From an uncultured Cloacibacillus sp. (lineage in GTDB: Bacteria; Synergistota; Synergistia; Synergistales; Synergistaceae), in NCBI GenBank assembly GCA_900544635.1, contig UQVV01000002.1, forward strand, positions 1 to 26,741: a stretch of DNA of 26,741 nucleotides, written 5' to 3'. Below, in pieces: positions 4,642-25,680 of this stretch; the stretch's first letter is position 1; each line of letters starts with the position of its first letter. The position numbers were made by a program, and so were the translations under genes. The notes beneath the pieces were generated by a model that was not told the origin of the DNA, did not search any database, and saw nothing but the letters and a program-made list of their open reading frames with translations.

Positions 4642-4651
4642 GAGGCGCGTC

Positions 4652-5263
4652 TTGGCGCTTCCGGGGCCCGTTCAGACACTTATAAACGAATGGAGCCGCT
4701 TCCCCGGCGTCGGTGAAAAGACCGCGCGGCGCATGGTATTCTACCTTCTGCGCCAGGAGCCGGAGAAGATACGCGGCTTCGGCGACGCGGTGCTCTCACT
4801 GTCGAAGAACATCCGCCGGTGCAGCGAGTGCGGGGCCGTCACGGACGCCGACCCGTGCGCGATATGCACCGACCCGCTGCGCGACAGGCGGCTGATATGC
4901 GTCGTCGAGAACGAAGAGGACTGCGTCGCGATGGAGCAGGCGGGCATATTCAACGGCCTTTACCACGTCCTCGGCGGCAGGACGTCGCCGCTCGACGACG
5001 AGGAGATACCAGAGGAGAGCCTCGAAAGGCTGCGCCATAGGGTCGAGGAGGGCGGCGTGCAGGAGATAATCCTCGCGACCGCGCCGCGCATAGAGGGAGA
5101 CCTCACGGCCTATTCGGTGCAGGAGGCGCTCAAGGGGCTTCCCGTGCGCGTCTCGCGCCTTTCGTACGGCCTGCCGGCCGGCGGCAGCATAGGCTTCGCC
5201 GACCGCGTTACGCTGCACATGGCGATGGAGGCCCGGAAGGAGATGAACGGCTCGACGGAATAG
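4652..5263 (+). CDS. recR: Recombination mediator protein RecR
   Basis: Acts with RecF/RecO to load RecA at single-strand gaps. The protein starts with an unusual TTG (LALPGPVQTLI), which aligns with the family's normal MALPxPxxxLI start, so TTG 4652 is preferred. It overlaps no other gene and lies 10 nt after ebfC. Seen: the N-terminal helix-hairpin-helix FPGVGEKTARRMVFYLL, a C4 zinc finger CSECG..CAIC at about residues 54-69, and a Toprim domain beginning LICVVENEEDCVAMEQ with the glycine-rich YHVLGGRTSPLD. The Walker-like C-terminal loop SYGLPAGGSIGFADRVTL is present. The 203 residues are full length. Confidence 0.96.
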   Translation: MALPGPVQTLINEWSRFPGVGEKTARRMVFYLLRQEPEKIRGFGDAVLSLSKNIRRCSECGAVTDADPCAICTDPLRDRRLICVVENEEDCVAMEQAGIFNGLYHVLGGRTSPLDDEEIPEESLERLRHRVEEGGVQEIILATAPRIEGDLTAYSVQEALKGLPVRVSRLSYGLPAGGSIGFADRVTLHMAMEARKEMNGSTE

Positions 5264-5323
5264 TTTTCGGCAAAGCACGCATAAATCGGAAAAAATCTAA
5301 GGTACTGGAAAGGAGGAGATTTT

Positions 5324-6463
5324 ATGCGGCATGACCTTGAATTGTCCAAGGTGATGAAAAGATTGGTCACAGCGGTAATGGTCTTTATCTGCGGCGCGGC
5401 CGGCTATCAGTTCTATCTGCTGATGATAGCGGAAAACTGGTGGCCCGCGGCGACGGATATACACCCGATAGGGGCGGGCGTCCTGATCGTCCTAGCATCG
5501 GCGGCTTTCGGCTTTATACTTGCACCTCTGTTTTGGTGGTCTATCAAGAAATTCGGTCAGTTTTTCGAGTCCAAAATACAGAATGTGAGCGTGCCGGATC
5601 TGATAGTCGGCATGATAGGGCTGATCATAGGCCTGCTTCTCGCGAACCTCATCGCGATACCGCTGGCGAAGCTTCCCGGAGGAATCGGCGTCTACGTGGC
5701 GGTGCTGCTCAACGTCGCGCTCGGCTACTGGGGCGTCCGCTTCTTCGCGAAGCGCGGCGACGATTTCTGGAACATACTGACGAACATCGACATAAAGTCG
5801 AAGCTCACGCGCTCGAAGAAGAAGGGCGAAAGCCCCGCGCCCGAGGAGATGCAGATTGCGTCGTCCTGCGCGAAGATAATCGACACGAGCGCGATAATAG
5901 ACGGACGCATCCTCGACGTCGCGAAGACGGGCTTCATCGAGGGGACGATAGTCCTTCCGCGCTTCGTCCTCGCGGAGCTCCAGGGCGTTGCGGACTCGAC
6001 GGATCCGATGCGCCGCACGCGCGGCCGCCGCGGCCTCTCAGTCGTTACGGATCTCCAGAAGGTCAAGGGGCTGACTGTCGAGATACCTGAAGTGACGCTG
6101 CGCGAGCTTGAGCGCGACAAGGTAGACGAGGCGCTCGTCGTCCTCGCGCGCCGCCTCAGCGGCAAGGTCATCACGACCGACTACAATCTGAACCAGGTCG
6201 CGCAGATCGAGGGCGTGGACGTGCTCAACGTCAACGACCTCGCGAACGCGCTGAAGCCGATGCTCCTGCCGGGCGAGAAAATCGAGATAGACATCATCCG
6301 CCTCGGCAAGGAGAACCACCAGGGCATCGGCTATCTCGACGACGGCACGATGTTCGTGGTCGAGGATGGCTATCGCCACGTAGGCGAGCGCGTCAAGGTC
6401 ACAGTCACGTCGATGCTCCAGACCTCGGCGGGACGAATGATTTTCGGACGCATACATCCGTAG
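5324..6463 (+). CDS. Membrane-anchored PIN/TRAM domain protein (YacL-like putative RNase)
   Basis: Four hydrophobic segments in about residues 10-150 anchor a cytoplasmic PIN-type nuclease domain (about 185-310) followed by a TRAM RNA-binding domain (about 315-375). Seen: IDTSAIIDGRI (first metal-binding Asp), VLAELQ, the basic RRTRGRRGL segment, and ITTDYNLNQVA (further acidic residues), which make up the PIN active site. The TRAM part is GYLDDGTMFVVEDG followed by VTVTSMLQTSAGRMIFGRI. A strong AAGGAGGAG precedes ATG 5324. Bacillus yacL also precedes ispD and ispF, so the order here is a known one. Cellular substrates of the family are poorly defined. The product name is secure at domain level only. 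Confidence 0.9.
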   Translation: MRHDLELSKVMKRLVTAVMVFICGAAGYQFYLLMIAENWWPAATDIHPIGAGVLIVLASAAFGFILAPLFWWSIKKFGQFFESKIQNVSVPDLIVGMIGLIIGLLLANLIAIPLAKLPGGIGVYVAVLLNVALGYWGVRFFAKRGDDFWNILTNIDIKSKLTRSKKKGESPAPEEMQIASSCAKIIDTSAIIDGRILDVAKTGFIEGTIVLPRFVLAELQGVADSTDPMRRTRGRRGLSVVTDLQKVKGLTVEIPEVTLRELERDKVDEALVVLARRLSGKVITTDYNLNQVAQIEGVDVLNVNDLANALKPMLLPGEKIEIDIIRLGKENHQGIGYLDDGTMFVVEDGYRHVGERVKVTVTSMLQTSAGRMIFGRIHP

Positions 6464-6469
6464 GCCGGA

Positions 6470-7669
6470 ATGAAGGACGCGCCGAACTGGTCTTTCCTCA
6501 TAACCGCGGGCGGCTCGGGCAGCCGCCTCGGCGGCGTGCCGAAGCAGTTCCGTATGCTCGGCGGCGCGTCGGTGTGGCGCTGGTCCTTCGCTGCGGCGGA
6601 TAAGCTCCGCCGCATGGGGCGCGTCCGCGATATAGTGATGACCGTTCCGCGCGAAAGCTTCGCCGCGCTTGCCGGCGAGGCGGAGAAGCTCGGGCTGACG
6701 CTCGTCGAGGGCGGACGTTCGAGAAGCGAATCCGTGACGAAAGGGCTTAGAGCGTGCCGCGGGCCGCACGTGCTGGTGCACGATGGGGCCCGCCCTTTTA
6801 TAAGCGAAGGGCTCTGCCTGCGGCTCATGGACGCGGTCGAGGCCGAAGGCCCCGGAGCAGCGCCGCTGCTGCCGTCCACGGATTCCCTCAAAGTCGTGGA
6901 AGATGGCGAAATAACGGGCGTCGCGGACAGGTCACTCTACTTCAGGACGCAGACTCCGCAGGCCTTTCCGCTCCGCGAGCTCATAGAAGTCATGGAAAAT
7001 TCTCCCGGCGGCGGCACCGACGAGGCTTCGCTCTGGCTCGCGGCGGGAAAGAAAATCGTCCCGGTGGAGGGCGAAGAGATGAACTTCAAGATAACTTCTC
7101 AATTCGACTGGGAGACGGCGTGCGCGCTCGCGCGCGGCGGCGCGGAGGTCGAGCGAAGGACGGGCCACGGCTACGACATCCATCAGCTCGCGGAGGGCCG
7201 CCCGCTGATAATCGCGGGCGTGAAGGTCGAGGGCGTCAGCTACGGCCTGCTTGGCCATTCGGACGCGGACCTCGTCGCGCACACCGTCATGGACGCGCTG
7301 CTCGGCGCGGCGGGTGAGCCCGACATCGGGACGCTCTTTCCGGCCACGGACGAAAAATGGCGCGGCGCGGACAGCATGGCGCTGCTGCGCACGGTGCTCG
7401 AGCTTCTTGCGTCGAAGGGCTGGCGCGCAGAATGGGTGGACGTTACGCTCAACGCGCAGAGGCCGAAGCTCGGCCACCTAGTGCCGGCCTTCATCGAGAG
7501 CATGAACCGCGCGCTCGGCGGAGACGAAACGAAAAGAATCTTCAACATGAAAGTGAAATCGGCGGAGCGCTGCGGCAGCGCCGGAAGGGGAGAGTGCATG
7601 ATATGCCACGGCGTGGCTACCATTGCGCGCGAGCTTCCTGCGGGCGCGGCGCGCCAGGATTTTTATTAA
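6470..7669 (+). CDS. ispDF: Bifunctional IspD/IspF of the MEP isoprenoid pathway
   Basis: Fusion of 2-C-methyl-D-erythritol 4-phosphate cytidylyltransferase (about residues 1-230) with 2-C-methyl-D-erythritol 2,4-cyclodiphosphate synthase (about 235-399). IspD is shown by AGGSGSRLGGVPKQF, VEGGRSRSESVTKGL, VHDGARPF, YFRTQTPQAF and VEGEEMNFKIT. IspF is shown by GHGYDIHQL (zinc ligands Asp and His), LLGHSDADLVAHTVMDALLG, GEPDIGTLFP and a KVKSAERCG segment near the end. The fused enzyme is known from several lineages, in which the two steps flank IspE. The start is 6 nt after the PIN/TRAM gene without an obvious Shine-Dalgarno sequence, so coupling is likely. Confidence 0.95.
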   Translation: MKDAPNWSFLITAGGSGSRLGGVPKQFRMLGGASVWRWSFAAADKLRRMGRVRDIVMTVPRESFAALAGEAEKLGLTLVEGGRSRSESVTKGLRACRGPHVLVHDGARPFISEGLCLRLMDAVEAEGPGAAPLLPSTDSLKVVEDGEITGVADRSLYFRTQTPQAFPLRELIEVMENSPGGGTDEASLWLAAGKKIVPVEGEEMNFKITSQFDWETACALARGGAEVERRTGHGYDIHQLAEGRPLIIAGVKVEGVSYGLLGHSDADLVAHTVMDALLGAAGEPDIGTLFPATDEKWRGADSMALLRTVLELLASKGWRAEWVDVTLNAQRPKLGHLVPAFIESMNRALGGDETKRIFNMKVKSAERCGSAGRGECMICHGVATIARELPAGAARQDFY

Positions 7670-7673
7670 ATAA

Positions 7674-9173
<1,500 letters not shown>

Positions 9174-9185
9174 AATTTAAGAGCG

Positions 9186-9217
9186 AAGCGGACGTTTCAC
9201 GGAAGCGTCCGCTTTTT
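9186..9217 (+). terminator. Rho-independent terminator after guaB
   Basis: Perfect 9-bp stem AAGCGGACG (9186-9194) with CGTCCGCTT (9206-9214), with the T tract running on to 9217. It lies 12 nt beyond the guaB stop. Confidence 0.88.
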
Positions 9218-9500
9218 AGTAAGCTTTCATAAATCCGGCGCGCCGGCGTGAATGCGCGCCGCTTTGTCTCGCGCTGCGGAAACGCTGCGGAGTTTGGGCG
9301 CGCGGCGGCTTTGTGGAGCCGCGCGTAATTGCCGGAGCCGCCGCCGGCTCTGCGCCCACGCCGTCGCTTCGCGCCGCCTTCGGCGCGCGGCGGAGATTTT
9401 GCACGCGTTGCGGCGCGGCGGAAATTTCCCGGCTCTTCCTCACGGCGGCGCGGCGGCTGTATAATTGTGGCGCGAAAATATATTTTTGCGAGGTGCAGCG
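9218..9500 (+). other. GC-rich intergenic stretch with several hairpins and a possible promoter
   Basis: No convincing gene is seen between guaB and the exonuclease gene. The stretch is exceptionally rich in GCG/CGC and contains short perfect inverted repeats: GGCGCGC/GCGCGCC (9237-9243 and 9254-9260), GAGCCG/CGGCTC (9335-9340 and 9345-9350, 4-nt loop) and GCGCCG/CGGCGC (9371-9376 and 9381-9386, CCTT loop). A TATAAT box at 9460-9465, with only a weak -35 candidate around 9437, could serve the downstream gene. The open frames here look like composition artefacts. Confidence 0.5.
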
Positions 9501-10304
9501 ATGACGCTAAAGATAGCTACGTTCAACGTCAATTCCGTAAAGAGCCGCATTCCCGTGCTTATCCAGTGGTTCGAGACGAAGGGCGCGCCCGACATACTCT
9601 GCCTTCAGGAGACGAAGTGCGTCGACGAGGATTTCCCCGCTTACTTCTTCGAGGATTATTTCGACTTCTGCAATTACCGCGGCATGAAGAGCTACAACGG
9701 CGTCGCGATAATATCGAAGCGCGAGCCGGACGAGGTCTCGTTCGGCCTCGGCGACGAGGGCGAGGCGGGGCGCGAGGAGTCCGAGGCTGCGCGCGTGGCC
9801 TTCGCGCGCTTCGGGAAGCTCTTCGTGCTGAACACATACATCCCGCAGGGGAAGGATATCGAGCATCCAGATTACGCCTACAAGCTGCGTTTCATCGCGC
9901 GCGTGCGCGCTCTGCTCGAGCGGCGCTGCACGCCTGACGACCTCGTCGTCTGGGTCGGCGACCTCAACGTCGCTCCGTCGGAGATCGACGTCGCGAATCC
10001 GAAAAATAAGAAGAACCACGTCTGCTTTCACGAGGACGTGAAGCGCGCGCTCGCCTCGGCGATGGAGTGGGGGCTCGTAGACATATTCCGCGAGCATCTG
10101 CCGAACGAGGGCGAGTACACCTTCTGGGACTACCGCATAAAGGACTCGCTCGCGCGCAACATCGGCTGGCGCATAGACCACGTGCTCGGCACGAGGAGCG
10201 CCGCCGCGCTCTGCCGCTCCGTGAGCGTCGAGCGCGAGCTGCGCGCCGCGGCGAAGCCGTCGGACCACACGGCGGTCGTGGCGGAGTTCGATTACGATTT
10301 ATAA
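9501..10304 (+). CDS. xth: Exodeoxyribonuclease III (Xth/ExoA family AP endonuclease)
   Basis: Repairs abasic sites and blocked 3' ends in base-excision repair, using Mg2+. Seen in order: ATFNVNSVKSR (catalytic Asn), LCLQETKCVDEDFP (metal-binding Glu), YNGVAIISKR, YIPQGKD, GDLNVAPSEIDVANPK (catalytic Asp and Asn), FWDYR, WRIDHVLGT and a final SDHTAVVAEF (catalytic Asp-His). ATG 9501 follows GAGGTGCAGC. An upstream in-frame start at 9465 exists but lacks support. At 267 residues the protein is full length. It is monocistronic by position: a terminator lies upstream and the trp promoter begins 4 nt after its stop. Confidence 0.95.
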   Translation: MTLKIATFNVNSVKSRIPVLIQWFETKGAPDILCLQETKCVDEDFPAYFFEDYFDFCNYRGMKSYNGVAIISKREPDEVSFGLGDEGEAGREESEAARVAFARFGKLFVLNTYIPQGKDIEHPDYAYKLRFIARVRALLERRCTPDDLVVWVGDLNVAPSEIDVANPKNKKNHVCFHEDVKRALASAMEWGLVDIFREHLPNEGEYTFWDYRIKDSLARNIGWRIDHVLGTRSAAALCRSVSVERELRAAAKPSDHTAVVAEFDYDL

Positions 10305-10308
10305 AGTG

Positions 10309-10336
10309 TTGACAGCTGTAAGATTTTCTATATAAT
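10309..10336 (+). promoter_or_regulatory. Promoter of the trp operon
   Basis: TTGACA (10309-10314) and TATAAT (10331-10336), both perfect consensus, separated by 16 nt and directly upstream of the T-box leader. This is the strongest vegetative promoter in block 1. Confidence 0.88.
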
Positions 10337-10344
10337 CTACGGCG

Positions 10345-10628
10345 TGGTTTATAGAGACCGAAACCTGTGAGACGGAGATAACGTCTGTCGGGCGCCTACA
10401 GAGAGTCCGCGTTGGTGAGAGCGGATGGAACGCAGGCAGGCAAATGGACCGTTGAGGGCGCGAGGAAAGGCGAAAGCCGAGTATGATGCGACGCGTGGGC
10501 ATGCGTAAGTTGCCGGAGATATGATGGTATCTCGCTAAGAGCACGCAAAGTCGTGAAGCAAGGTGGCACCGCGGGAATTTTCAGCCCGTCCTTGGCAGAC
10601 TAAATATCTGCCGGGACGGGCTTTTTTA
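10345..10628 (+). ncRNA. T-box riboswitch leader of the trp operon
   Basis: Binds uncharged tRNA and lets transcription proceed into trpE when its amino acid is scarce. The invariant T-box sequence AAGGTGGCACCGCGG is at about 10559-10573, upstream of a terminator: stem AGCCCGTCC (10583-10591) with GGACGGGCT (10614-10622), an inner GGCAGA/TCTGCC stem, then a T run to about 10627. The upstream part carries the stem I landmarks AGAGAG and GGTGAGAGC. The downstream genes are all tryptophan biosynthesis, so the specifier should be UGG. I place it at TGG 10445-10447 (context CAAATGGACC). A second TGG at 10426-10428 is less likely. The tRNA-Trp assignment is inferred from context and was not folded. 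Confidence 0.93.
10583..10628 (+). terminator. T-box attenuator terminator hairpin
   Basis: Nine-bp outer stem (10583-10591 with 10614-10622) plus a 6-bp inner stem (10594-10599 with 10607-10612), followed by TTTTTT. It is mutually exclusive with the antiterminator formed by the T-box sequence just upstream. Confidence 0.87.
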
Positions 10629-10663
10629 GTTCCAGCCCTCCGGCAGCGAACGGAGGTAGTTTT

Positions 10664-12148
10664 ATGTATCCCGAGCTTGAAGAGGTCAAGAGGCTCGCGA
10701 AGAGCGGCGAGTACAAGAGGATTCCCGTCTGCCGCGAGCTGTACGCCGACAGGTTTACGCCGGTCGAGGTTATGAGGACTCTGCGCGCGGCGGGCAGGCA
10801 TTGCTTTCTGCTTGAGAGCGCGGAGAACAACCAGCGCTGGGGGCGCTATTCGTTCCTCGGCTACGAGCCGGAGCTCGAGCTGACCTGCACGGACGGCGTG
10901 CTGCGCGTCCGCGAGGCGGCGGGCGACGGCGAGGTCAGGGAACGGACTGAAAAGACGGAGCATCCGGGCGCGGCGATACGCTCGGTGCTGCGCGAACGCA
11001 AGAGCCCGAAAATCAAAGGAATGCCGCCCTTCTGCGGCGGCCTCGTCGGCTATTTCTCATACGAATATTTCAAGTACGCGGAGCCGACGCTTCGCTGCGG
11101 CGGAGAGTGCGGCGACTTCCGCGACGCGGACCTGATGCTTTTCGACAAGGTGATCGCCTTCGACCATTACCGTCAGAAGCTGCTGCTCATAGCGGGCGTT
11201 CCCGCGGACGACGCTGACGCTGGCTATCTGCGCGCGTGGAAGTCGCTCGACGAGATGGAGTCGCTGCTTACGAGCGGCGCGAAGGCCGTCTTCCGTCCTC
11301 TGAAGCTGAAGGAGGAGCTTGCGCCGCGCTTCTCGAAGAAGGAATTCTGCTCGATGGTGGAGAGCGCGAAGAAATATATCCGCGAGGGCGACATATTCCA
11401 GGTCGTGCTCTCGAACCCGCTGAGCGCGGCGGCGGAGGGCAGCCTCTTCGACACCTACCGCGTGCTGCGCACGACGAACCCGTCGCCCTACATGTTCTAC
11501 TTCTCGAGCGACGATATAGAGATAGCGGGCGCTTCGCCCGAGACGCTCGCGCGCCTTGAGGACGGCACGCTCTATACATTCCCGCTCGCGGGCACGCGCC
11601 GCCGCGGCGCGGACGAGCGCGAGGACGCGGAGCTCGAGCGCGAGCTGCTCGCAGACGAAAAGGAGCTCGCCGAGCACAATATGCTCGTCGACCTCGGACG
11701 CAACGACGTCGGGCGCGTCTGCCGCCTCGGCAGCGTGACGGTCGAACGTTATCTCGACGTTCTGCGCTTCTCGCACGTCATGCACATCGGCTCGACGGTC
11801 TCGGGCCGCCTGCGCGAGGACAGGGACGCGGTGGACGCCGTGGATTCGATACTGCCGGCGGGCACTTTGTCCGGCGCGCCTAAGATACGCGCCTGCGAGA
11901 TAATCCGCGAGCTCGAGGGCGGGCGGCGCGGAATTTACGGCGGCGCGGTCGGCTATCTCGATTTCAGCGGCAACATGGACACCTGCATAGCGATACGGCT
12001 CGCCTATAAGAAGAACGGGCGCGTCTGCGTACAGTCGGGCGCGGGCATCGTCGCCGACAGCGAGCCGGAGCGCGAGTTCCGCGAATGCGCGGACAAGGCG
12101 CAGGCGGTCGTCCGCGCGCTGCGCGCCGCCGAGGGAGGATTAAGATAA
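10664..12148 (+). CDS. trpE: Anthranilate synthase component I
   Basis: Converts chorismate to anthranilate using ammonia delivered by TrpG. The 494 residues are the usual length. The N-terminal half contains [20 protein letters not shown], including the LLES segment that forms the tryptophan feedback site in characterised TrpE proteins. The C-terminal chorismate-binding half shows [19 protein letters not shown], the GTRRRG loop, [28 protein letters not shown] and [28 protein letters not shown] Shine-Dalgarno precedes ATG 10664. It is first in the trpEGDCF(B) operon under the T-box, and its stop overlaps the trpG start by one base (TAATG). Confidence 0.97.
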
Positions 12149-12732
12149 TGCTTCTGCTTATAGACAACTACGACAGCTTTGCCTACAACCTCTATCAGCT
12201 AGCGGGGGCCTTCTCGCCCGACGTGATGGTGGAGCGCAACGACGCGCTGACGGCCGACGAGGTCGCCGCGCTCGCGCCCGAGGCGATATTCCTTTCGCCG
12301 GGGCCGGGGCGTCCCGAGGATGCGGGCGTCTGCCCCGCGCTCGTGCGCCGCTTCGCGGGGAAGATACCGATTTTCGGCGTCTGCCTCGGAATGCAGGTTA
12401 TCTGCTCCGCGCTCGGCGGGCGCGTATCCTATGCGAGGACGCTCATGCACGGCAAGGTCTCGAAAATTTCGCTCGAGGGCGAGAGCGTCCTCTTCAGGGG
12501 CATGAAGAGCGGATTTCCCGCGGCGCGCTACCATTCGCTCGCGGCCGTCGAGGAGAGCCTGCCGCCATCGCTGCGCGTCACGGCGCGCGCCGAAGACGGC
12601 GAGATAATGGCGCTCGAGGACGTGCGGCGGCTCGTCTGCGGCGTGCAGTTCCACCCGGAATCCGTGATGACGCCGGACGGCGCTGCGATAGTGAAGAATT
12701 TTATAGATGCGGCGAAGGCCGGGAGGAAATAA
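12148..12732 (+). CDS. trpG: Anthranilate synthase component II (glutamine amidotransferase)
   Basis: Class I glutamine amidotransferase that hydrolyses glutamine and channels ammonia to TrpE. Seen: [17 protein letters not shown] at the N-terminus, [16 protein letters not shown], the nucleophile loop [10 protein letters not shown] (catalytic Cys), YHSLA, and [12 protein letters not shown] (catalytic His and Glu). The start ATG 12148 overlaps the trpE stop, which explains the lack of a separate leader, although GAGGGAGGA lies just upstream inside trpE. The protein has 194 residues, is not fused to TrpD and appears intact. Confidence 0.97.
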
Positions 12733-12734
12733 AG

Positions 12735-13745
12735 ATGATTAAAGAGGCGATAGTAAAGCTTTCGAAGAAAGAGGATCTGACCTTCGCGGAGGCGCGCGAG
12801 GTCATGAACGAGATAATGGACGGGCAGGCGAGCGGCGTGCAGATGGCGGCCTACCTGACGGCGCTTTCGCTGAAGGGCGAGACGACGGATGAGATAACCG
12901 CCTCGGCGGTCGGCATGCGCGAGCACTGCATCAGGCTGCTGCACGACGTAGACGCGCTCGAAATAGTCGGCACGGGCGGAGACCACGCGAACTCCTTCAA
13001 CATCTCGACGACGGCGGCGCTCGTCACGGCGGCGGGCGGCGTCGCGGTCGCGAAGCACGGAAACCGCGCCGCCTCGTCGAAGTGCGGGGCCGCGGACGTG
13101 CTCGAGGCGCTCGGCGTGAACATCACGATTTCGCCGGAGCGCAGCGCGCAGCTGCTGAAGGAGATAAACATCTGCTTCCTCTTCGCGCAGAACTACCACA
13201 TCGCGATGAAGTACGTCGCGCCCGTGCGCCGTGAGCTCGGCATCAGGACGGTATTCAACATCCTCGGCCCGCTCTCGAACCCCGCGGGCGCGAAGCGCGA
13301 GCTGATGGGCGTCTACGACGAGACGCTCGTCGAGCCGCTCGCGCACGTCATGTCGCGCCTCGGCGTCTCGCGCGGCATGGTCGTCTTCGGACAGGACAGC
13401 CTCGACGAAATTTCTATGAGCGCGCCGACGACGGTATGCGAGATTCGCGACGGCTGGTTCCAGTCATACGAGCTGACGCCAGAGCGCTTCGGCTACGAGC
13501 GCTGCGCGAAGGCGGAGCTCGTCGGAGGAACGCCGCAGGAGAACGCCGCGATAACGCGCGCTATACTCGCCGGGACGGATCGTGGGCCGAAGCGCAGCGC
13601 CGTCTGCCTCAACGCGGGCGCGGCCCTCTACATCGGAGACAAAGCTGAGAGCGTCGAGGCCGGAGTGCGCAAAGCCGAGAAACTTATCGACTCCGGCGCG
13701 GCGGCTCGCAAGCTCGAAGAATTTATAAAAGAGAGCAATAAATGA
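12735..13745 (+). CDS. trpD: Anthranilate phosphoribosyltransferase
   Basis: Transfers phosphoribose from PRPP to anthranilate. Seen: the N-terminal helical part ([20 protein letters not shown]), [15 protein letters not shown] (PRPP-binding GTGGD), [35 protein letters not shown] and the late HD-like SLDEISMS segment. The 336 residues are normal. ATG 12735 is two nucleotides after the trpG stop, with GGGAGGAAA as ribosome binding site inside the end of trpG. The stop overlaps the trpC start by four bases (ATGA). Confidence 0.97.
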
Positions 13746-14533
13746 ACATCTTAGAGGAAATAGCAGAAAGGACGAGAATCCGCGTCGCGGAGGACAAAAA
13801 GCGCGCGCCGCTCGCGGAGGTGCGCCGCGCCGCGGAAGAGGCGGCGAAGGCGAGAGCTCCGCGCGGCTTCGAGAACGCGCTGCGCGGCGGCGACGTTTCG
13901 TTCATCTGCGAGGTGAAGCGCGCCTCGCCGTCTAAGGGGCTCATCGCCGAGGATTTCCCCTACCTCGACATCGCGCGCGGCTACGAGGCTGCGGGCGCGG
14001 CGGCGATATCGTGCCTGACCGAGCCCTATTGGTTTAAGGGCAGCGACGAATATCTGCGCGAGATAGCGCGCGAGGTACGCATCCCCGTGCTGCGCAAGGA
14101 TTTCACGGTGGACGAGTACATGATATACTCTGCCTCGGCGCTCGGGGCCTCCGCCGTGCTGCTGATAGTTTCGCTGACTGACGGCGCGGCGCTGCGCGAC
14201 TATATAGCCCTCGCGCACGAGCTGAATCTCTCGGCGCTCGTCGAGGTTCACGACGAGGCGGAGACGGAGCTGGCGCTCGGCGCGGGCGCGCGTATCGTCG
14301 GCGTCAACAACCGCGACCTCAAAACCTTCAAAGTGGATATGAACGTAAGCCTGCGGCTGCGCCCGCTCGTCCCGCGCGAAATCGTATTCGTCTCAGAGAG
14401 CGGAGTGAACGGCCCCGAGGATATAGAAAAGCTGCGCCGCTGCGGCGCGGACGCCGTGCTCGTCGGCGAGCGGCTGATGCGCGCGGCGGACAAGCGCGCG
14501 GCGCTCGCGGAGCTGAGGGGGACGGCGCGGTGA
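13742..14533 (+). CDS. trpC: Indole-3-glycerol-phosphate synthase
   Basis: Closes the indole ring from carboxyphenylamino-deoxyribulose phosphate. TIM-barrel protein of 263 residues. Seen: [19 protein letters not shown] (substrate Lys and the ASPSKG loop), [27 protein letters not shown] (catalytic Lys), [12 protein letters not shown] (catalytic Glu), [10 protein letters not shown] and [13 protein letters not shown]. The start overlaps the trpD stop by ATGA and the end overlaps the trpF GTG start, so translation is coupled along the operon. Confidence 0.97.
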
Positions 14534-15135
14534 CGAAAATAAAAATCTGCGGCCTCTCGCGCGAGTGCGATATAGATTTCGCCAACGAAACGAAGCCGGA
14601 CTACGTGGGCTTCGTCGTGAACTTCCCGAAGAGCCGCAGGAACGTCTCCCCCGACAGGGCGCGCGAGCTCGCCTCGCGGCTGTCGCCCGAAATTACGCCC
14701 GTCGGCGTCTTTGTGGACGAGCGGCCCGAGGTTATAGCGGAGCTCGTAAGCTGCGGCGCGATTGCGGCGGCGCAGCTCCACGGCTCCGAGGACGGGGAAT
14801 ATATAAAAAATCTGCGCGCGCTCTGCCGCTGCGAGATTATTCAGGCCTTCCGCGTGAAGGACGAAGAGGGCGTGCGGCGCGCCGCGCAAAGCTCCGCGGA
14901 TTACGTTCTGCTCGACGGCGGGCAGGGCGAGGGGCGGCGCTTCGACTGGAAGCTCGCGGAAAATTTCCCGCGTCCCTGCTTCATAGCGGGCGGCCTGTGC
15001 GCGGAGAACGCTGCGGAGGTTATGGAAAAGCTGCGCCCCTTCGCGCTCGACATGAGCAGCGGGGTGGAGACGGACGGATTCAAGGACTTGGAAAAAATCA
15101 GAGCGGCTGTCGCCGCCGTCAGGAGGTTTTCATAG
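14530..15135 (+). CDS. trpF: Phosphoribosylanthranilate isomerase
   Basis: Amadori isomerase between TrpD and TrpC. TIM barrel of 201 residues. Seen: [13 protein letters not shown] (catalytic Cys at the first strand), [51 protein letters not shown] (catalytic Asp) and [25 protein letters not shown] (phosphate site). It starts with GTG in a GTGA overlap with trpC. It is the last complete gene of block 1, and AGGAGG at 15121-15126 inside its end serves the next start, trpB. Confidence 0.96.
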
Positions 15136-15228
15136 ATGAGCGGAGGAAGGTTCGGCGAACACGGCGATCCGGCGGGCAGCAGCAGCGCGCTGCAATCGGA
15201 CGCGCCCTTATTACGCGTCCGGCGTTAA
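15136..15228 (+). pseudogene. trpB: trpB 5' fragment, cut after ten codons
   Basis: ATG 15136 has an ideal ribosome binding site (AGGAGG, 9-nt spacing) one base group after the trpF stop. It encodes [10 protein letters not shown], which matches the conserved start of tryptophan synthase beta (GRFGEHGGQYVPE in the family). After codon ten (GGC, ending 15165) homology stops. The frame runs through foreign sequence to a TAA at 15226-15228. The remaining ~390 codons of trpB, and trpA, are absent. The sequence that takes over belongs in another frame to an ABC ATPase gene. The cut is probably not biological (see the findings), so a complete trpB probably exists elsewhere in the source genome. Confidence 0.85.
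15163..15170. other. Junction of the two blocks, with GATC at the join
   Basis: trpB sequence is recognisable up to 15165 and ABC-ATPase sequence from 15168 (TCC of the SGGQ signature). GATC occupies 15166-15169. The base composition and codon choice change to AT-rich within about 100 nt downstream. No inverted repeats, target duplication or recombinase gene are seen at the join. Confidence 0.85.
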
Positions 15229-15425
15229 TTCTGGCTGACGAGCCAACCGGAAATCTCGACACACAAAACAGCAGCGAAGTAATCGCGCTCCTGAAAGAAG
15301 CGTCAAAAAAATATGAACAGACCATTATTATGATTACTCATAGCCGCAGTATTGCGCAAACCGCAGACAGGGTATTGCAGGTATCAGACGGAGTCCTTAC
15401 TGATTTTGGGAGGTGCCGCCAATGA
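15168..15425 (+). pseudogene. ABC transporter ATP-binding protein, 3' fragment (MacB/LolD-like)
   Basis: About 85 C-terminal residues of an exporter ATPase that would power the permease downstream. It begins exactly at the ABC signature, [14 protein letters not shown], then has Walker [14 protein letters not shown], the D-loop and the H-loop IIMITHS. The N-terminal two thirds, including Walker A and the Q-loop, are missing because the sequence is joined to trpB. It cannot be functional as it stands. The stop overlaps the permease ATG by four bases (ATGA, 15422-15425), the usual coupling in these two-gene transporters, so the break is only on the 5' side. Confidence 0.9.
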
Positions 15426-17224
15426 AAAGCTATCTAAGCCTTATCCCTATCTCCGCAAAGGTCAGAAAACGGCAAAACAGCATGACACTTTTATGCATTG
15501 TATTTGCTGTCTTTTTGGTAACAGCTGTTTTCAGCATGGCTGATATGGGTGTCAAAATGGAGCAGTCCCGATTGCTGGAGAAGCATGGAAACCTGACCCT
15601 TCAGGACCTGCTAACTAATACAATGACCCAAACCCTTTTTCTGACAGCAGGTGTATTGTTCGTGCTGATATTGACAGCGGCCGTATTGATGATTTCCAGC
15701 AGTATGAACAGCAATATAACCCAGAGAACAAAGTTTTTCGGAATGATGCGCTGTCTTGGTATGAGCCGTCAGCAAATAATCCGTTTTGTGAGACTGGAAG
15801 CCCTGAACTGGTGCAAAACCGCTATTCCCGCAGGCGTTGCGCTTGGAATAGCAGTCACATGGTGCCTGTGCGCTGCCCTGCGTTTTATTGTCGGTGAAGA
15901 ATTCTCCGGCATCCCTCTTTTCGGCATCAGCATGCCCGGTATTGTCAGCGGAATCGTTGTGGGTATCGTTACAGTATTACTCGCCGCAGGAGCTCCCGCA
16001 AAACGGGCTGCAAAAGTATCTCCTGTCACAGCCGTTTCAGGCAATTCACAAAATGATGGTAATGCACACCACACAGTAAATACACGCCTGTTTAAAGTTG
16101 AGACAGCGCTTGGCATTCATCACGCCCTGTCTGCAGCAAAAAACCTGATACTTATGACAGGTTCATTTGCCCTCAGTATTATTTTATTCTTAAGTTTTTC
16201 TGTTCTGATCGATTTTGTCGGCTATATTATGCCGCAGTCAGCCGGCACATCTGATATAAACATTACAAGTATTGACGGTTCAAATACAGTCAGCAGTGAT
16301 TTGCCTGATACAATCATTGGAATGCATGGGGTAAAACGCGTTTACGGGCGCCGAAGCAGTTTTGATGTTTCCGCAGGATTACATTCAGGTGGGGCTAAGA
16401 TTGATATTGTCTCTTACGATGACTTTGATTTGGACTGCCTTGTAAAAGATGGTATGCTGAAAAAGGGCAGCAATATTTCAAAGGTATACGGAAACAGCAA
16501 ATATGTGCTTGCGGTCTGGGATAAAGACAGCACATTGGAAATCGGAGATAAAATAGATGTTGGTAATGAAGAGCTTGAAATCGCAGGCTTATTAAAATAT
16601 AACCCTTTCAGCAGCAACGGTCTTACAAATGGAGAAATAACCCTTGTTACCTCCGGCGCTGTATTTACCCGTCTGACCGGCATCACTGACTACTCTCTCA
16701 TCATGATACAGACAGCAAAGGATGTGACAGATGAAGATGTGACAGCAATCCGCAGCATATTAGACCAAAACTGCGTATTAAAGGACCTGCGTGGCCAGCA
16801 CAATTCCGGCACTTATTTTGCATTTGTATTCTGCATATACGCGTTTTTAGCAATCATTACGCTGGTTACGGTGTTGAATATCGTAAACAGTATTTCCATG
16901 AGCGTATCCTCCAGAATAAAATCATACGGAGCAATGCGGGCGGTTGGGATGGACCAATATCAGATTACGAAAATGATTGCGGCCGAAGCCTTTACCTATG
17001 CTTTAATCGGCGGCCTTGTGGGTTGTGCAGCCGGTTTGCTGATTTACAAGCTTTTATATGACATTCTCATAATCTCTCACTTCAGCTACGCTGCCCTAAG
17101 TCTGCCTGCTGCCCCTTTACTGATAATCCTTTTCTTTGTTTGTATGGCAGCGATTGCAGCCGTTTATGCCCCTGCAAAGCGAATGAGAGACATGGAAATA
17201 ACAGAAATCATAAACGAATTGTAG
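15422..17224 (+). CDS. ABC transporter permease, FtsX-like family, apparently lacking one extracytoplasmic domain
   Basis: Membrane subunit of a two-gene exporter, partner of the ATPase fragment. ATG 15422 is chosen over GTG 15413 because GGGAGG (15408-15413) lies 8 nt upstream of it. There is an N-terminal membrane segment (about residues 20-40), then FtsX cores at about 70-200 (QRTKFFGMMRCLGMSRQQIIRF) and at the C-terminus (SSRIKSYGAMRAVGMDQYQITK). A membrane segment near 240 and an extracytoplasmic domain (about 260-460) lie between them. In relatives I remember, a substrate-facing domain of roughly 170-180 residues sits between the first membrane segment and the first FtsX core. Here LLEKHGN runs almost at once into the next hydrophobic segment. 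This may be an internal deletion. Typical substrates (lipids, peptides, antibiotics) cannot be read from the sequence. Confidence 0.85.
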   Translation: MKSYLSLIPISAKVRKRQNSMTLLCIVFAVFLVTAVFSMADMGVKMEQSRLLEKHGNLTLQDLLTNTMTQTLFLTAGVLFVLILTAAVLMISSSMNSNITQRTKFFGMMRCLGMSRQQIIRFVRLEALNWCKTAIPAGVALGIAVTWCLCAALRFIVGEEFSGIPLFGISMPGIVSGIVVGIVTVLLAAGAPAKRAAKVSPVTAVSGNSQNDGNAHHTVNTRLFKVETALGIHHALSAAKNLILMTGSFALSIILFLSFSVLIDFVGYIMPQSAGTSDINITSIDGSNTVSSDLPDTIIGMHGVKRVYGRRSSFDVSAGLHSGGAKIDIVSYDDFDLDCLVKDGMLKKGSNISKVYGNSKYVLAVWDKDSTLEIGDKIDVGNEELEIAGLLKYNPFSSNGLTNGEITLVTSGAVFTRLTGITDYSLIMIQTAKDVTDEDVTAIRSILDQNCVLKDLRGQHNSGTYFAFVFCIYAFLAIITLVTVLNIVNSISMSVSSRIKSYGAMRAVGMDQYQITKMIAAEAFTYALIGGLVGCAAGLLIYKLLYDILIISHFSYAALSLPAAPLLIILFFVCMAAIAAVYAPAKRMRDMEITEIINEL

Positions 17225-17418
17225 CTGCGTTATTGTTGCAGCTGCGTTATTGGCATTATGCGCCGGGACTTACCACCGGGACGGGAAGCCGGTCCGGGGG
17301 AGGGCGGGGTTAAGTCCGGGCTTGGCCGGTGCAAAGGCTGCGAAACAGGGAAATCATTTTCCGTAAGTTTCGCAGATTCCTGCCCTGGCCTCCTGTACCA
17401 AACCATATCATATGGTTT
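17225..17418. other. Structured intergenic region between convergent genes
   Basis: Lies between the permease (+) and the nucleotidyltransferase (-). It contains a 13-bp direct repeat AGCTGCGTTATTG (17223-17235 and 17240-17252). A GC-rich imperfect inverted repeat has arms 17262-17272 and 17311-17321 with one mismatch. A nested hairpin pairs CTGCGAAAC (17338-17346) with GTTTCGCAG (17367-17375) around an inner GGAAA/TTTCC. A perfect 9+1+9 palindrome AAACCATAT-C-ATATGGTTT spans 17400-17418. The hairpins may act as a bidirectional terminator. The ATCATATGG core of the palindrome also occurs at the start of the dispersed promoter repeat (first copy, 18777). Confidence 0.6.
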
Positions 17419-17915
17419 TATCTTTCGCCTTTGCCGTTCCCGGTTTTGTGTTCTGCAAATTTGTCAATCAATTCAACCTTAGACGTTCTCCCCATCCACT
17501 CATAATATTGACGCCACAGCGCCAATCCCTGTAAAGGGACACGCTCTTTGCCTATGGTGATATACTCAGTAATTTGGTCAGGTTTAAGGGAGCAATCGTG
17601 TTCCATGCAGTTATCTACTATAACAAATCCAGCTATCACATCTATTTCCACTTCATCCACGGTAAACTCTATAAAGGTCCTGGTCTTAAATTGAGGATCA
17701 GGGCTGGCAGCACCCATAGTTCCCATGTTCAAAAGAATGTTTTTGCATCGTTCAACATCTTTTTCATCAACCATGATGTCGATGTCATGAAACACCTCTG
17801 CCACTCCTTTAAAATACAAAAGCAGTGATGCACCGATAGCCCATAAAAGATTATCTTTGTTAAACTCTGCTGCTATTTTTTGTAATACATCCATCTTTTT
17901 CTGAAGATCATTCAC
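17418..17915 (-). CDS. Minimal nucleotidyltransferase-fold protein
   Basis: About 165 residues. Seen: LLWAIGASLLLYFKG followed by HDIDIMVDEKDVERC, which fits the GS-x(n)-DxD pattern of small nucleotidyltransferases (the AbiEii/MNT or aminoglycoside-adenylyltransferase type). A later acidic EIDVIAGFVIV may supply the third carboxylate. The start is taken as GTG 17915 because AGGGGAGG lies just upstream (17921-17928) at proper spacing, although the frame is open further. It follows the DUF4240-like gene on the same strand with a 67-nt gap, so the two probably form an operon. The substrate is unknown. Small nucleotidyltransferases occur both as toxins or antitoxins and in antibiotic modification, and nothing here decides between them. 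Confidence 0.7.
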   Translation of the reverse strand: MNDLQKKMDVLQKIAAEFNKDNLLWAIGASLLLYFKGVAEVFHDIDIMVDEKDVERCKNILLNMGTMGAASPDPQFKTRTFIEFTVDEVEIDVIAGFVIVDNCMEHDCSLKPDQITEYITIGKERVPLQGLALWRQYYEWMGRTSKVELIDKFAEHKTGNGKGER

Positions 17916-17946
17916 GTTTAACCTCCCCTTGCAGATTATTCTGAAT

Positions 17947-17974
17947 CTGCTCTCTGCAATCTGCTCTCTGCAAT
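17947..17974. repeat. Perfect 14-bp tandem duplication
   Basis: CTGCTCTCTGCAAT occurs twice without a gap in the space between the two minus-strand genes. It probably arose by replication slippage. No function is evident. Confidence 0.8.
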
Positions 17975-17982
17975 CTATTCCC

Positions 17983-18543
17983 TCAATCCTCTCTCTCAGT
18001 CTTTCCTTTCCATCCTTCAATATTGCTCATGGTTTCGTAACAATATTTTGTTGTGTGGGGATATTCATTCTCTGGTTTACCATGTACTCTTGCCCACGCA
18101 AAAGCAGGAACAGACAGAATAGATTCAAATGACAGGCTGCCTTTCAGTTTTCTTCTGCCGCTGACAATGTCGTTGTAATACCGTTTGGAATTAATTAATG
18201 CAGCACATCGAATATATAAAAACTCATCCGCAGAAAAACTTCTGTCCTTATAAATGTCCCCTGCAATTTTCTGAGTGTCTAACGAATATAAAAGCTCTGC
18301 CATGGTATCATGGAACGCAAAAATAAGGTCATCTCCCCAGGCAGCAAGCAATGTGACAAGAGGTTCAATGACAGCAATATCGTCCCCTTGCTTTTCCCAA
18401 TCCAGGCAGGCATCTGTCAAATGAAAAAAATCAATTGCCGACATTTTCTTCTCATATAAAATAGCCTGAATAAAAATGGGCGGTTTCCCCGGCCCAGAAG
18501 TATAATATTTTCTCTCTTTTTTAACTTTATTGTCTTTATCCAT
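17983..18543 (-). CDS. DUF4240-like protein
   Basis: 186 residues, no signal peptide or membrane segment. The layout fits DUF4240 as I know it: an early FFHLTDACLDW helix, then DDLIFAFHDTMAELLYSLDT, FSADEFLYIRCAALINSKRYYNDIV and a final FESILSVPAFAWARVHG. The family is of unknown function and is found widely in accessory regions. Start ATG 18543 follows AAGGAGAT at good spacing. It is upstream of, and on the same strand as, the nucleotidyltransferase gene. The first ~30 residues are lysine-rich (KKERKYY) and not part of the domain. Confidence 0.65.
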   Translation of the reverse strand: MDKDNKVKKERKYYTSGPGKPPIFIQAILYEKKMSAIDFFHLTDACLDWEKQGDDIAVIEPLVTLLAAWGDDLIFAFHDTMAELLYSLDTQKIAGDIYKDRSFSADEFLYIRCAALINSKRYYNDIVSGRRKLKGSLSFESILSVPAFAWARVHGKPENEYPHTTKYCYETMSNIEGWKGKTERED

Positions 18544-18595
18544 ATTTTATCTCCTTAAAATGCGGCTCTCCGTCCCCCATCACAAGTAACCCGGC

Positions 18596-18715
18596 TTATT
18601 CATATGGGTACTCTGGCTCGATTTCATAATGTACATCAAAGGGTTCAAGCCTGCCGTGCATTCTCCACATATCATAGGCGCTCCCGGCCGCAATCAGATT
18701 CCGCTTCTGCGTCAA
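18596..18715 (-). pseudogene. 3' remnant of a gene duplicated at 25161-25370
   Basis: Encodes 39 C-terminal residues, LTQKRNLIAAGSAYDMWRMH and so on, ending DVHYEIEPEYPYE. These match the C-terminus of the minus-strand gene at 25161-25370 (MQKRNLIAAGSAYDIWKML ... HHEIWPEYPYG) at high identity in both DNA and protein. The 5' part is missing, and the frame is closed by a stop directly before the leucine. Function is not recognised. The differences are scattered, several at third codon positions, so both copies were probably under selection before this one was lost. Confidence 0.75.
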
Positions 18716-18776
18716 TTATACATTCCACCGCCATTTGAAATGTCGGCATATTGCCCCTTTCCATTCCTTCATAAAA

Positions 18777-18858
18777 TAAATTATATCATATGGCGGGTGT
18801 ATGCAGCAACAGGCAGATAGGGACGTTGCGGAATCCCAGCGGCCATGCTATACTTTTG
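18777..18858 (+). repeat. Dispersed promoter-bearing repeat, copy 1
   Basis: Begins TAAATTATATCATATGG and continues with GTGTATGC-GCAACAGGCAG, ending in CCATGCTATACTTTTGT. It aligns with copies at 20851 and 25590. It lacks about six to nine bases in the middle relative to copy 2. Similarity stops a few bases after the -10 box. It precedes the AlkC-like gene. Confidence 0.85.
18826..18854 (+). promoter_or_regulatory. Promoter inside repeat copy 1
   Basis: -35 TTGCGG (18826-18831), 17-nt spacer, -10 TATACT (18849-18854) with a TGC extension just before it. The position relative to the AlkC-like start leaves a leader of about 70 nt. Confidence 0.7.
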
Positions 18859-18927
18859 TTGAAGTCAGACAAACTGTTTATGATAGGGTATACCCATGGC
18901 TGAATCACATTTGAAAAGAGGAAACAT

Positions 18928-20028
18928 ATGCCCGTATTAATGAAAGACAAATATTATAATTACGATTCGCTTCACGATTTGGCTTCGCGTATTCAAGCTG
19001 TCTTTCCCTCATTCCAGGAAAATGATTTTGTGGACCATATTATGAACGAAACATGGGATGCATTGGAACTGAAGGCCCGTATGCGGCAAATCACTATCAA
19101 TTTAGGAAAATATCTGCCGGCAGACTATAAACAGGCACTGGGTATTATAGACCAGGTCATTGCCGGGTATCCTTCAGGGTATAACGATAATGCACTCATA
19201 TACTTTCCGGATTTTGTTGAAGTCTATGGACAGGATGAATGCCATTGGGACTTGTCAATGGCCGCCATAGAACGATATACCCCGCTTTCAACTGCGGAGT
19301 TTGCCGTAAGACCGTTTATTATAAAGCAAGAAGCGCGCATGATGCAGCAGATGGCTGTCTGGGCCAGGCATGATAACGAGCATGTGCGGCGGCTTGCCAG
19401 CGAGGGCTGCCGTCCCGCCCTTCCCTGGGGCCAGGCATTGACCAGCTTCAAAAAGGACCCGTCGCCGGTACTTCCTATTTTGGAGCAACTGAACACGGAC
19501 CCATCACTGTATGTCCGCAAAAGTGTGGCCAATCATTTAAATGATATTTCAAAAACCCATCCTGGCCTGGTTACAAAAATCGCAAGAGATTGGTATGGCA
19601 GGCATGAGTATACGAATTGGATTGTAAAACATGGATGCCGGACACTGCTTAAAAAAGGAAATCAGGAGGTGCTGGATATTTTCGGGTACCACAATGCCGG
19701 TTCCGTGGATATCGCTGATTTTACGTTAGGCTCTGCGTCTATTTCCCTCGGAGAAAATATGACGTTTTCGTTTACAGTTTCGGCAAAAGAAACAACAAAG
19801 GTACGGCTGGAGTATGCCATGGGCTATGTAAAAGCAGATGGAAGGCTGAGCCGGAAAATATTCCAGATATCGGAGATTTTGTTAAAGGCAAACCAGAAAA
19901 AGACATATATAAAAAAACATTCCTTCTCAGATTTAAGGACAAGGAAACATTATCCGGGAACACATTCCGTCACGCTTATTGTCAATGGCGCTGAGCAGGA
20001 TACCTTGGATTTTGAATTGACAATATAG
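18928..20028 (+). CDS. AlkC-like DNA alkylation repair glycosylase with C-terminal Ig-like domain
   Basis: Predicted to excise 3-methyladenine-type alkylation damage. It is a HEAT-like-repeat glycosylase of the AlkC/AlkD superfamily, which acts without base flipping. Residues ~1-255 are helical repeats with LSTAEFAVRPFI, NEHVRRLASEGCRPALPWG and SLYVRKSVANHLNDISKTHP, all typical of AlkC. Residues ~260-366 are beta-rich (LGSASISLGENMTFSFTV ... THSVTLIVNGAEQDTLDFEL) and correspond to the Ig-like DNA-binding domain described for some AlkC proteins. Start ATG 18928 has AAGAGGAAAC upstream. Transcription probably comes from repeat copy 1. The gene stands alone, without an ada-like regulator nearby. 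Confidence 0.85.
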   Translation: MPVLMKDKYYNYDSLHDLASRIQAVFPSFQENDFVDHIMNETWDALELKARMRQITINLGKYLPADYKQALGIIDQVIAGYPSGYNDNALIYFPDFVEVYGQDECHWDLSMAAIERYTPLSTAEFAVRPFIIKQEARMMQQMAVWARHDNEHVRRLASEGCRPALPWGQALTSFKKDPSPVLPILEQLNTDPSLYVRKSVANHLNDISKTHPGLVTKIARDWYGRHEYTNWIVKHGCRTLLKKGNQEVLDIFGYHNAGSVDIADFTLGSASISLGENMTFSFTVSAKETTKVRLEYAMGYVKADGRLSRKIFQISEILLKANQKKTYIKKHSFSDLRTRKHYPGTHSVTLIVNGAEQDTLDFELTI

Positions 20029-20090
20029 GTATTGGCTTTATTTATTACCGCAGCATAATACTTGATAAACTCAAATTTTCGGAGGTAAAT

Positions 20091-20600
20091 ATGATACTTG
20101 AAACAGAGAGATTATATCTGCGCGAGATGAATCAGTCCGATTTTGACTCTTTATGCAGCATCTTACAGGACGAGGATACCATGTATGCATATGAAGGTGC
20201 ATTCAGCGATGATGAAGTCCAGGAATGGCTGGATAAACAAATTTTCCGTTATCAAAAATGGAACTTTGGTTTATGGGCAGTCATTCTAAAAGAAACCAAT
20301 GAAATGATAGGTCAGTGCGGACTTACAATGCAGCCGTGGAAAGATACGGAAGTGCTTGAAATAGGTTATCTTCTTGCGCGGCCGTACTGGCATAAAGGGT
20401 ATGCCATCGAAGCAGCAAAGGCGTGTAAAACGTATGCTTTTGAAATATTAAAGGCAGATGAAGTCTGCTCTATCATCCGGGATACAAATATAGCTTCCCA
20501 AAACGTAGCCATAAGAAACGGTATGACAATGACCGGCACATGGACAAAACATTACAGAGGTGTGGATATGCCTCATTACCGTTATGTGGTATCACGATGA
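20091..20600 (+). CDS. GNAT family N-acetyltransferase (RimJ/RimL type)
   Basis: 169 residues. Opens with ILETERLYLREMNQSDFDSL, typical of the RimJ/RimL subgroup. The acetyl-CoA binding region is EIGYLLARPYWHKGYAIEAA, and SQNVAIRNGMTMTG follows near the end. The real acceptor (a ribosomal protein, small molecule or other) cannot be deduced. ATG 20091 follows TTCGGAGGTAAAT. A TTGACA at 20017-20022 inside the end of the AlkC-like gene, with a weak -10 around 20041, could give it its own promoter. Confidence 0.9.
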   Translation: MILETERLYLREMNQSDFDSLCSILQDEDTMYAYEGAFSDDEVQEWLDKQIFRYQKWNFGLWAVILKETNEMIGQCGLTMQPWKDTEVLEIGYLLARPYWHKGYAIEAAKACKTYAFEILKADEVCSIIRDTNIASQNVAIRNGMTMTGTWTKHYRGVDMPHYRYVVSR

Positions 20601-24161: not shown

Positions 24162-24522
24162 TAGCTTTAAGCCGGTGGTAATAATGTGCAGAATCAGCTA
24201 AAAGACAGGGTTTTCCATATCGTATGTTAGGGCAGCGTGAGGGTTTGTCCGTATGGTTGACGATCTGCCTGTGAACTAAATTCAACTATGTGAAAGAAGG
24301 TCTTTCGTGGATACACATGATAGCCTGGGGCAAAGGGGCCTGGGAGATTTCATGCATGCAAAAAGGACCCAACGTATGGTTTTCACATACCTCAGGTCTA
24401 TTATTTTTACTTTTTCAGCCCCAAAACAGCACATATATAACAGAAATCAGCCTCCCGGCCCTCTGTCTCCTGCTTTTAATTGCCGGATTAGGAAAAACAC
24501 ACTGGAAGGACCGCTTGCAAAG
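24162..24522. other. Stretch without a recognisable gene
   Basis: About 360 nt between the preceding gene and the terminator at 24523. The plus-strand open frame here starts without a ribosome binding site and runs on over the opposite-strand pseudogene. I see no promoter of note and no repeat. Confidence 0.4.
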
Positions 24523-24549
24523 AAAAACGGCAGGAACGCCGTCTTTTTT
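24523..24549 (-). terminator. Bidirectional intrinsic terminator
   Basis: A-rich arm, ACGGC (24527-24531), 6-nt loop, GCCGT (24538-24542), then C and six T. It reads as a terminator on both strands and ends at the stop of the minus-strand broken gene. Confidence 0.6.
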
Positions 24550-24850
24550 CATGTTCTTGCATGTTGAACCGACAAGAAATAATCCCATGTACAATAGGTA
24601 TCGTCATGTTCTACCTGGATTGAATAGCCTGCACACGCCAGGTATTGGTTGCAAAGCCCCATTTTTTCTTCCAGGTTATCCCGTTCATCTATATCTACAT
24701 ATATATCCAATCTTCCTCTTCCAGAAAATCCTCAAACTCCCACTGCTCTTTAATTCCAAGCATCAGGTCAACCGTTGGTTTCTGGGTCCGGTAGAGTTCC
24801 ATATAATCCTTTGCTGTAAAAATAGTCTGAATGCGCTGTTTTTCAACCAT
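24549..24850 (-). pseudogene. Small gene broken by a 2-bp slip in an AT repeat
   Basis: ATG (24848-24850) with GGAGGATAAACGAAGG upstream encodes MVEKQRIQTIFTAKDYMELY, then GIKEQWEFEDFLEEEDWIYM, then stop. The other frame takes up at the ATATAT run (24699-24704) and continues DIDERDNLEEKMGLCNQYLA, CAGYSIQVEHDDTYCTWDYF and LSVQHART to a TGA at 24549-24551. Removal of one AT restores a single frame of about 100 residues (..EEDWIYVDIDERD..). Family not recognised. Both halves are good protein-like sequence and the terminator at 24523-24549 fits the restored end. Either a real slippage mutation or a sequencing error is possible. Confidence 0.65.
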
Positions 24851-24925
24851 ATCCTTCGTTTATCCTCCATTATCCATGGCAAATAGCCTGGGGTTTGTAT
24901 GCCCTTGTATATCCGGAAACCCAGG

Positions 24926-25114
24926 TCAAACGCCAAAATGTATCATATATTTCTCCCTACAGATTGCCTCGCATATTTTAACAGCCAGGGCTGCCAGCTG
25001 CTCATCCCTGTTCATCCTTCTATCCGCTATCACTATCTCCTGGAATGCGGGGAGGGATTCCGGCAGTATCAGGGTAATGCCCCACCTTGCGAGCCCAAAA
25101 TACGCCCTTGCCAT
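24926..25114 (-). CDS. Small uncharacterised protein (62 aa)
   Basis: MARAYFGLARWGITLILPES then LPAFQEIVIADRRMNRDEQL, AALAVKICEAICREKYMIHF. The reading frame extends upstream, but a strong GGGGAGGTGCTGGC in front of ATG 25114 fixes the start here. No membrane segment is clear. Function unknown. It lies 46 nt after the minus-strand gene at 25161-25370 and is probably cotranscribed with it. Its 3' end runs into a weak CCTGGG/CCCAGG inverted repeat. Confidence 0.6.
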   Translation of the reverse strand: MARAYFGLARWGITLILPESLPAFQEIVIADRRMNRDEQLAALAVKICEAICREKYMIHFGV

Positions 25115-25160
25115 GCCAGCACCTCCCCTATATACTCTGTTTATGTGTCCTGTTCCTCTT

Positions 25161-25370
25161 TTATCCATATGGATACTCAGGCCAGATTTCATGATGCACA
25201 TTAAACGGCTCAAGCCTGCCGAGCATTTTCCATATATCATAGGCACTCCCGGCCGCAATCAGGTTCCGCTTCTGCATCAATGCCCGTTTTGCCTGGAGAT
25301 AATTCACATTCATGACCTTTGCATATGCCTTGATTCCCTCCAGGCTGAAGCAAGCAATGGCCTCTCCCAT
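25161..25370 (-). CDS. Uncharacterised protein (69 aa), probably the 3' part of a longer gene
   Basis: MGEAIACFSLEGIKAYAKVM, NVNYLQAKRALMQKRNLIAA, GSAYDIWKMLGRLEPFNVHH, ending EIWPEYPYG. ATG 25370 has no convincing ribosome binding site. The frame upstream is protein-like (ADGERLKIR) but meets a stop created next to a tandem duplication (25412-25445). The annotated ORF may therefore be the tail of a larger, broken gene. Its C-terminus is duplicated as the remnant at 18596-18715. Family not recognised. Confidence 0.5.
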   Translation of the reverse strand: MGEAIACFSLEGIKAYAKVMNVNYLQAKRALMQKRNLIAAGSAYDIWKMLGRLEPFNVHHEIWPEYPYG

Positions 25371-25589: not shown

Positions 25590-25680
25590 TAAATTATAAC
25601 ATATGGTGCGTGTATACGGCAACAGACAGAGAGGGAGATGGAAACCGTTGTGGAATAAAGATGCGCATGTTATACTTTTG
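25590..25680 (+). repeat. Dispersed promoter-bearing repeat, copy 3
   Basis: TAAATTATAACATATGG, GTGTATACGGCAACAGACAG, GGAAACCGTTGTGGAA, then CATGTTATACTTTTGTAA. Same order and spacing as copies 1 and 2. It precedes the 160-residue gene. Confidence 0.86.
25648..25676 (+). promoter_or_regulatory. Promoter inside repeat copy 3
   Basis: -35 TTGTGG (25648-25653), 17-nt spacer, -10 TATACT (25671-25676), preceded by TGT. Confidence 0.7.

Follow-up and report, generated by a model that had tools for sequence, protein, structure and literature searches.

Does a gene that breaks off inside an unrelated gene record an event in a bacterial genome or an accident in the making of its sequence? The question is raised here by a trpB that, after ten codons, turns into the 3′ end of an ABC-transporter ATPase gene. 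We analysed the whole 26,741-nucleotide stretch of DNA that carries this join (the window) and consider it, at a probability of about 0.95, to be a chimeric contig of uncultured Synergistota and uncultured Clostridia DNA. Two lineages meet at a sharp join, and in independent sequence each side continues normally past the breakpoint; we infer a technical origin for the join.

Two blocks of different composition meet within trpB

The first-pass annotation of this DNA had described a trpB intact for ten codons behind an ideal ribosome-binding site and then an ABC ATPase in another frame, a description that holds to the base. The trpF stop codon (15133–15135) directly abuts the trpB ATG at 15136, AGGAGG lies upstream of this ATG at 15121–15126, and codons 1–10 agree with the TrpB start in relatives. 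From TCC at 15168–15170 onwards, a new frame that differs from that of trpB leads to a stop at 15425, its product ending in ...GRCRQ as the C-terminus of an ABC ATPase (PF00005). The features of the window are collected in Table 1.

Table 1 Features of the window on either side of the join and at the join itself.
Feature	Coordinates	Strand	Content or basis
Block 1, Synergistota chromosome segment	1..15166	+	Pfam and DNA matches to G127 (contig L115) and G128 (contig L114); GTP cyclohydrolase II, ribH, serS, wecG-like, ybaB, recR, PIN/TRAM, ispDF, guaB, exonuclease, trpE-G-D-C-F, first 31 bases of trpB
trpB 5′ stub, 10 codons + 1 base	15136..15166	+	Comparison with intact trpB of L115 and L114
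Join	15166..15168		Last trpB base 15166; first ATPase base 15167 (Leu codon TTA or CTA) or 15168 (one extra A)
GATC	15166..15169		Straddles the join; most simply created by it (G/ATC), not expected in either parent
Block 2, Clostridia segment	15168..26741		ABC transporter end, DUF4240, DNA-alkylation protein, GNAT, FMN reductase, unnamed small proteins
ABC-transporter ATPase gene 3′ end, SGGQQQR signature to stop	15168..15425	+	PF00005; exact 85-aa protein matches
FtsX-like ABC permease adjoining the ATPase	15413..17224	+	PF02687; start GTG 15413 or, more likely, ATG 15422

GC content is 62.3% to the left of the join and 42.5% to its right, bearing out the GC-rich to AT-rich switch noted earlier, and the tetranucleotide comparison that had been proposed gave a distance of 0.76 between the blocks versus 0.19 and 0.21 when either block was split into halves. 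A Markov score calculated in 500-base bins showed a single sign change, with the change point at 15260; this position derives from composition alone and was therefore not used to place the join. Up to the window end, the composition of block 2 stayed Clostridia-like, with neither a second edge nor a return to block 1, any far edge lying beyond the window. When each side was searched separately—another check suggested at the outset—the left matched Synergistota genomes up to the join and the right had its best genome matches in Clostridia.

The left-hand block runs on into an open trpB in related genomes

In a search of 185 Synergistota-side genomes, drawn from the phylum of the Synergistaceae genome G001 (locus L052) and with a match in 176, the SerS of the window was 99% identical to that of G127 and 98% identical to that of G128. 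The G127 contig L115 aligned with window positions 1041–15166 in one single alignment that ends at the join, at a DNA identity of 90%, which makes G127 the nearest Synergistota genome among those searched and places the window's own species outside that set. Contig L114 of G128 matched at 86% over 83–9196 and at 84% over 9428–15164, the BLAST alignments thus ending at 15166 for G127 and at 15164 for G128. Identity to L115 in 100-base bins left of the join averaged 90% (lowest, 64%); it was 89% in the last 100 bases on this side and 42% in the first 100 to the right. Past the join point, L115 and L114 both run on into a trpB that stays open over 394 residues (the L115 product being PF00291 by Pfam) and then into a 258-residue frame that, from its sequence and place, we take to be trpA. 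Beyond it, the G128 contig carries further frames that, as far as we can judge from resemblance, are presumably housekeeping genes. The window thus shares with the trp operon of these two genomes its gene order (E-G-D-C-F-B) and 84–90% DNA identity up to the join, but only the first 31 bases of its trpB are present and no remainder of the operon follows.

When the L115 trpB was searched in 24 clade genomes, 13 gave matches with E values no higher than 1e-60. Six of the 24 (including G127 itself, the source of the query) carry a trpB of at least 75% identity over the whole length, a seventh copy, in G136 (78%), is incomplete and lies at the start of a contig, and the remaining matches lie at 52–56%. 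Internal stops were absent from every listed trpB match.

The trp genes (window 10664–15135) come after the exonuclease gene in G127 and G128 too. No trp DNA match was present in the 19.9 kb examined of G167 or of G137 (L116, L117), and G137 and G138 have a trpB at 88% located elsewhere. The TrpF of the window is about equally near to Lachnospiraceae (57%, L065) and to Synergistaceae (54–55%), a pattern of similarity which suggests that the trp operon may itself have been transferred. Two distinct TrpF genes are present in some Synergistaceae genomes, the copies of G001 being 53% and 43% identical to the window TrpF. An Rfam search of the window yielded no match at gathering score; a tRNA-Glu match at 13805–13892, inside trpC and on the opposite strand, is probably a false positive and was discounted.

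The right-hand block is Clostridia-like and its ATPase is uncut elsewhere

The permease is 98–99% identical to three ENA proteins. Among genome loci, its best matches are L001 (Clostridiaceae bacterium 1XD21-72) and L002, at 74%, and for the ATPase fragment identity goes up to 95% (L017). Like Clostridia pairs of an ABC ATPase and an FtsX-like permease, the window has an ATPase C-terminus and then a permease, as in most permease-bearing loci compared, but its ATPase is without the N-terminal part. Some sources name the permease of such pairs as being of the antimicrobial-peptide type. At 7690–7760 of L001, the ATPase frame has stops just ahead of the signature motif, unlike the 45 other relatives displayed. 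Among the 185 Synergistota-side genomes, 117 matched the permease, in all cases remotely (best E 8e-8, 22% over 268 residues).

The right-hand parent is known as protein alone. The 85-residue ATPase fragment is found exactly in ten of 120 listed protein matches (7,994 scored), and in all ten ERRNHLPSQL stands directly before it, the ATPase sequence upstream of the fragment, across the breakpoint, amounting to at least 78 residues in total. Behind these ten stand 90%-identity clusters of 6, 10, 12 and seven times 1 contigs, whose members need not all be exact. None of the ten is a plain full-length ATPase: P0003–P0006 start late, P0007 and P0008 miss a piece at the P-loop, and P0010–P0013 show three differing N-termini, one common to P0010 and P0011 and the others belonging to P0012 and P0013. 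Judged from these proteins, the ATPase parent gene is itself poorly assembled or variable towards its start, its breakpoint region being uncut. The odd N-termini further suggest that other assemblies, too, may tend to misjoin this gene at conserved ABC motifs. Several metagenome proteins (P0002, P0010–P0013, P0024 and P0048) carry the C-terminus of this ATPase, or one closely related, behind N-termini apparently from other ABC subfamilies; together with P0007 and P0008, they give the impression of being either additional chimeras formed at conserved ABC motifs or real mosaics.

The DNA-alkylation protein has one ENA relative at 97%. The longest contig recorded for P0003 (ATPase) and for P0122 (alkylation protein) measures 9,349 bases in both cases, a hint, although no proof, that the two lie on one contig. 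The species behind block 2 was sought in sampled genomes of three orders, with window 15171–18000 in 394 genomes and with window 15413–20600 (E 1e-60 or better) in a further 345 and 392. The strongest match was of 73% DNA identity over the permease (L142), and up to 79% was reached over ~500 bases of the GNAT gene. None of 107 loci compared harbors both trpF and the permease, and, apart from the ATPase and permease, none carries block-2 genes in the order of the window; the gene order of block 2 is therefore without independent confirmation.

In support of the earlier remark that no mobile element is present, a Pfam scan of 14 block-2 frames returned no integrase or transposase family. Megablast found no plasmid match for block 2, and the exact pattern of the ATPase start had no match in viral contigs. 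Window 24162–25730 holds no convincing gene, with frames overlapping on both strands and no Pfam match in the one frame tested; a decayed gene on the minus strand may lie here.

The join lies in a shared 10-nt stretch and carries a GATC

At the breakpoint, the trpB of L115, the nearest relative, reads AACACGGCG followed by GGCAGTACA, and the window reads AACACGGCG followed by ATCCGGCGGGCAGCAG; strict microhomology at the join is nil. The join is contained in a 10-nt stretch, CGGCGGGCAG, that is common to the L115 trpB and the right-hand sequence and codes for the Gly-Gly-Gln motif of both TrpB and the ABC ATPase. Sharing of 10 nt arose in 5 of 20,000 random pairs and in 7 of 20,000 GC-matched pairs (about 0.0003), a figure to be read in the knowledge that the sharing was noticed after the fact and that the 90%-identical L115 stands in for the trpB of the window's own species. 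Repeats of at least 14 bases are absent from positions 14600–15800. The fused frame is covered to at most 45% by any of the 120 listed protein matches (7,994 scored), and the exact join pattern is absent from viral contigs (IMG/VR).

The first-pass annotation had placed a GATC exactly on the join. The site exists, and is the only GATC within 600 bases of the join; its relation to the join is refined here to one of straddling it. At the aligned position, all 45 TrpB places compared have Gly, and their codon pairs are free of GAT. Among 78 ABC places, 76 have Leu and 2 have Phe ahead of the signature serine; GATC is seen in 0 of the 78, and the ten exact ATPase protein matches all have Leu. Within these counts, some places share a genome. 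In 40 of the 78, the codon ahead of the serine is TTA or CTA, either of which would provide the A at 15167. Because TrpB has Gly and the ATPase relatives have Leu or Phe at this point, the GATC was most likely formed by the join, as judged from relatives and exact protein matches standing in for the parents' own DNA.

Very probably a chimeric contig rather than an event in a genome

A GATC made by the join renders restriction–ligation unlikely as its cause. An artefact specifically from ligated GATC-cut (Sau3AI/DpnII) ends, as in clone or proximity-ligation libraries, had been offered earlier as an example of how the contig might have formed, and the lone site on the join speaks for it; however, such ligation needs a GATC in both parents, and neither the relatives nor the exact protein matches provide for one. 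We regard this route as extremely improbable, and this part of the earlier proposal is not borne out.

A chimera was, in general terms, what the first-pass annotation had favored, and this has been upheld by the recovery of both sides uncut across the breakpoint in independent sequence (on the left as L115 and L114 DNA, on the right as protein). Alternatively, a Synergistota strain could have gained at least 11.6 kb of Clostridia DNA by a real illegitimate insertion at the 10-nt stretch, destroying its trpB. The rarity by chance of the shared stretch would suit illegitimate recombination in a cell, the patchy presence of trpB in the clade implies that its loss need not be lethal, and a strain-specific event retains a residual chance given that the nearest genome searched has only 90% DNA identity. 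Still, such an insertion is highly improbable: because both sides are uncut elsewhere, mobile-element families and edge repeats are lacking in the regions scanned, block 2 does not return to block 1 before the window ends, and the fusion was not found again in viral contigs or the listed protein matches, an artefact is far likelier than biology. Next to negligible is a real deletion or rearrangement in one genome containing both blocks, with an older transfer and then a deletion from trpB to the ATPase; it would account for two genes truncated at one point, but is at odds with the GC contents of the two blocks and with the Synergistota-side genomes having no more than remote relatives of the permease.

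As for how the chimeric contig came about, ~15.17 kb of Synergistota and ~11.57 kb of Clostridia DNA would have been joined at 15166/15167 in library preparation, amplification or assembly, presumably by a non-homologous join or a template switch and not by ligation of GATC-cut ends. The window resembles interspecies chimeric contigs in metagenome assemblies in its two unrelated genomes, its sharp join and its sides that are normal elsewhere and, as far as viral contigs and the listed protein matches go, in a join that was not refound, but differs from them in that the join lies inside a 10-nt stretch of two unrelated genes, with no long shared repeat seen. According to a spike-in study, species of low to intermediate coverage were likelier to end up in chimeric contigs with all assemblers used (PMC7881036).

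The broken trpB is almost certainly a sequencing or assembly error and not biology, and this window shows no cell that carries it. The genes at this join should hence not be taken as a case of transfer or gene loss, and the conserved codons of both parents offer a simple test of whether a restriction site on a join predates it. If the join were real after all, it would represent a rare transfer between phyla helped by ~10 nt.
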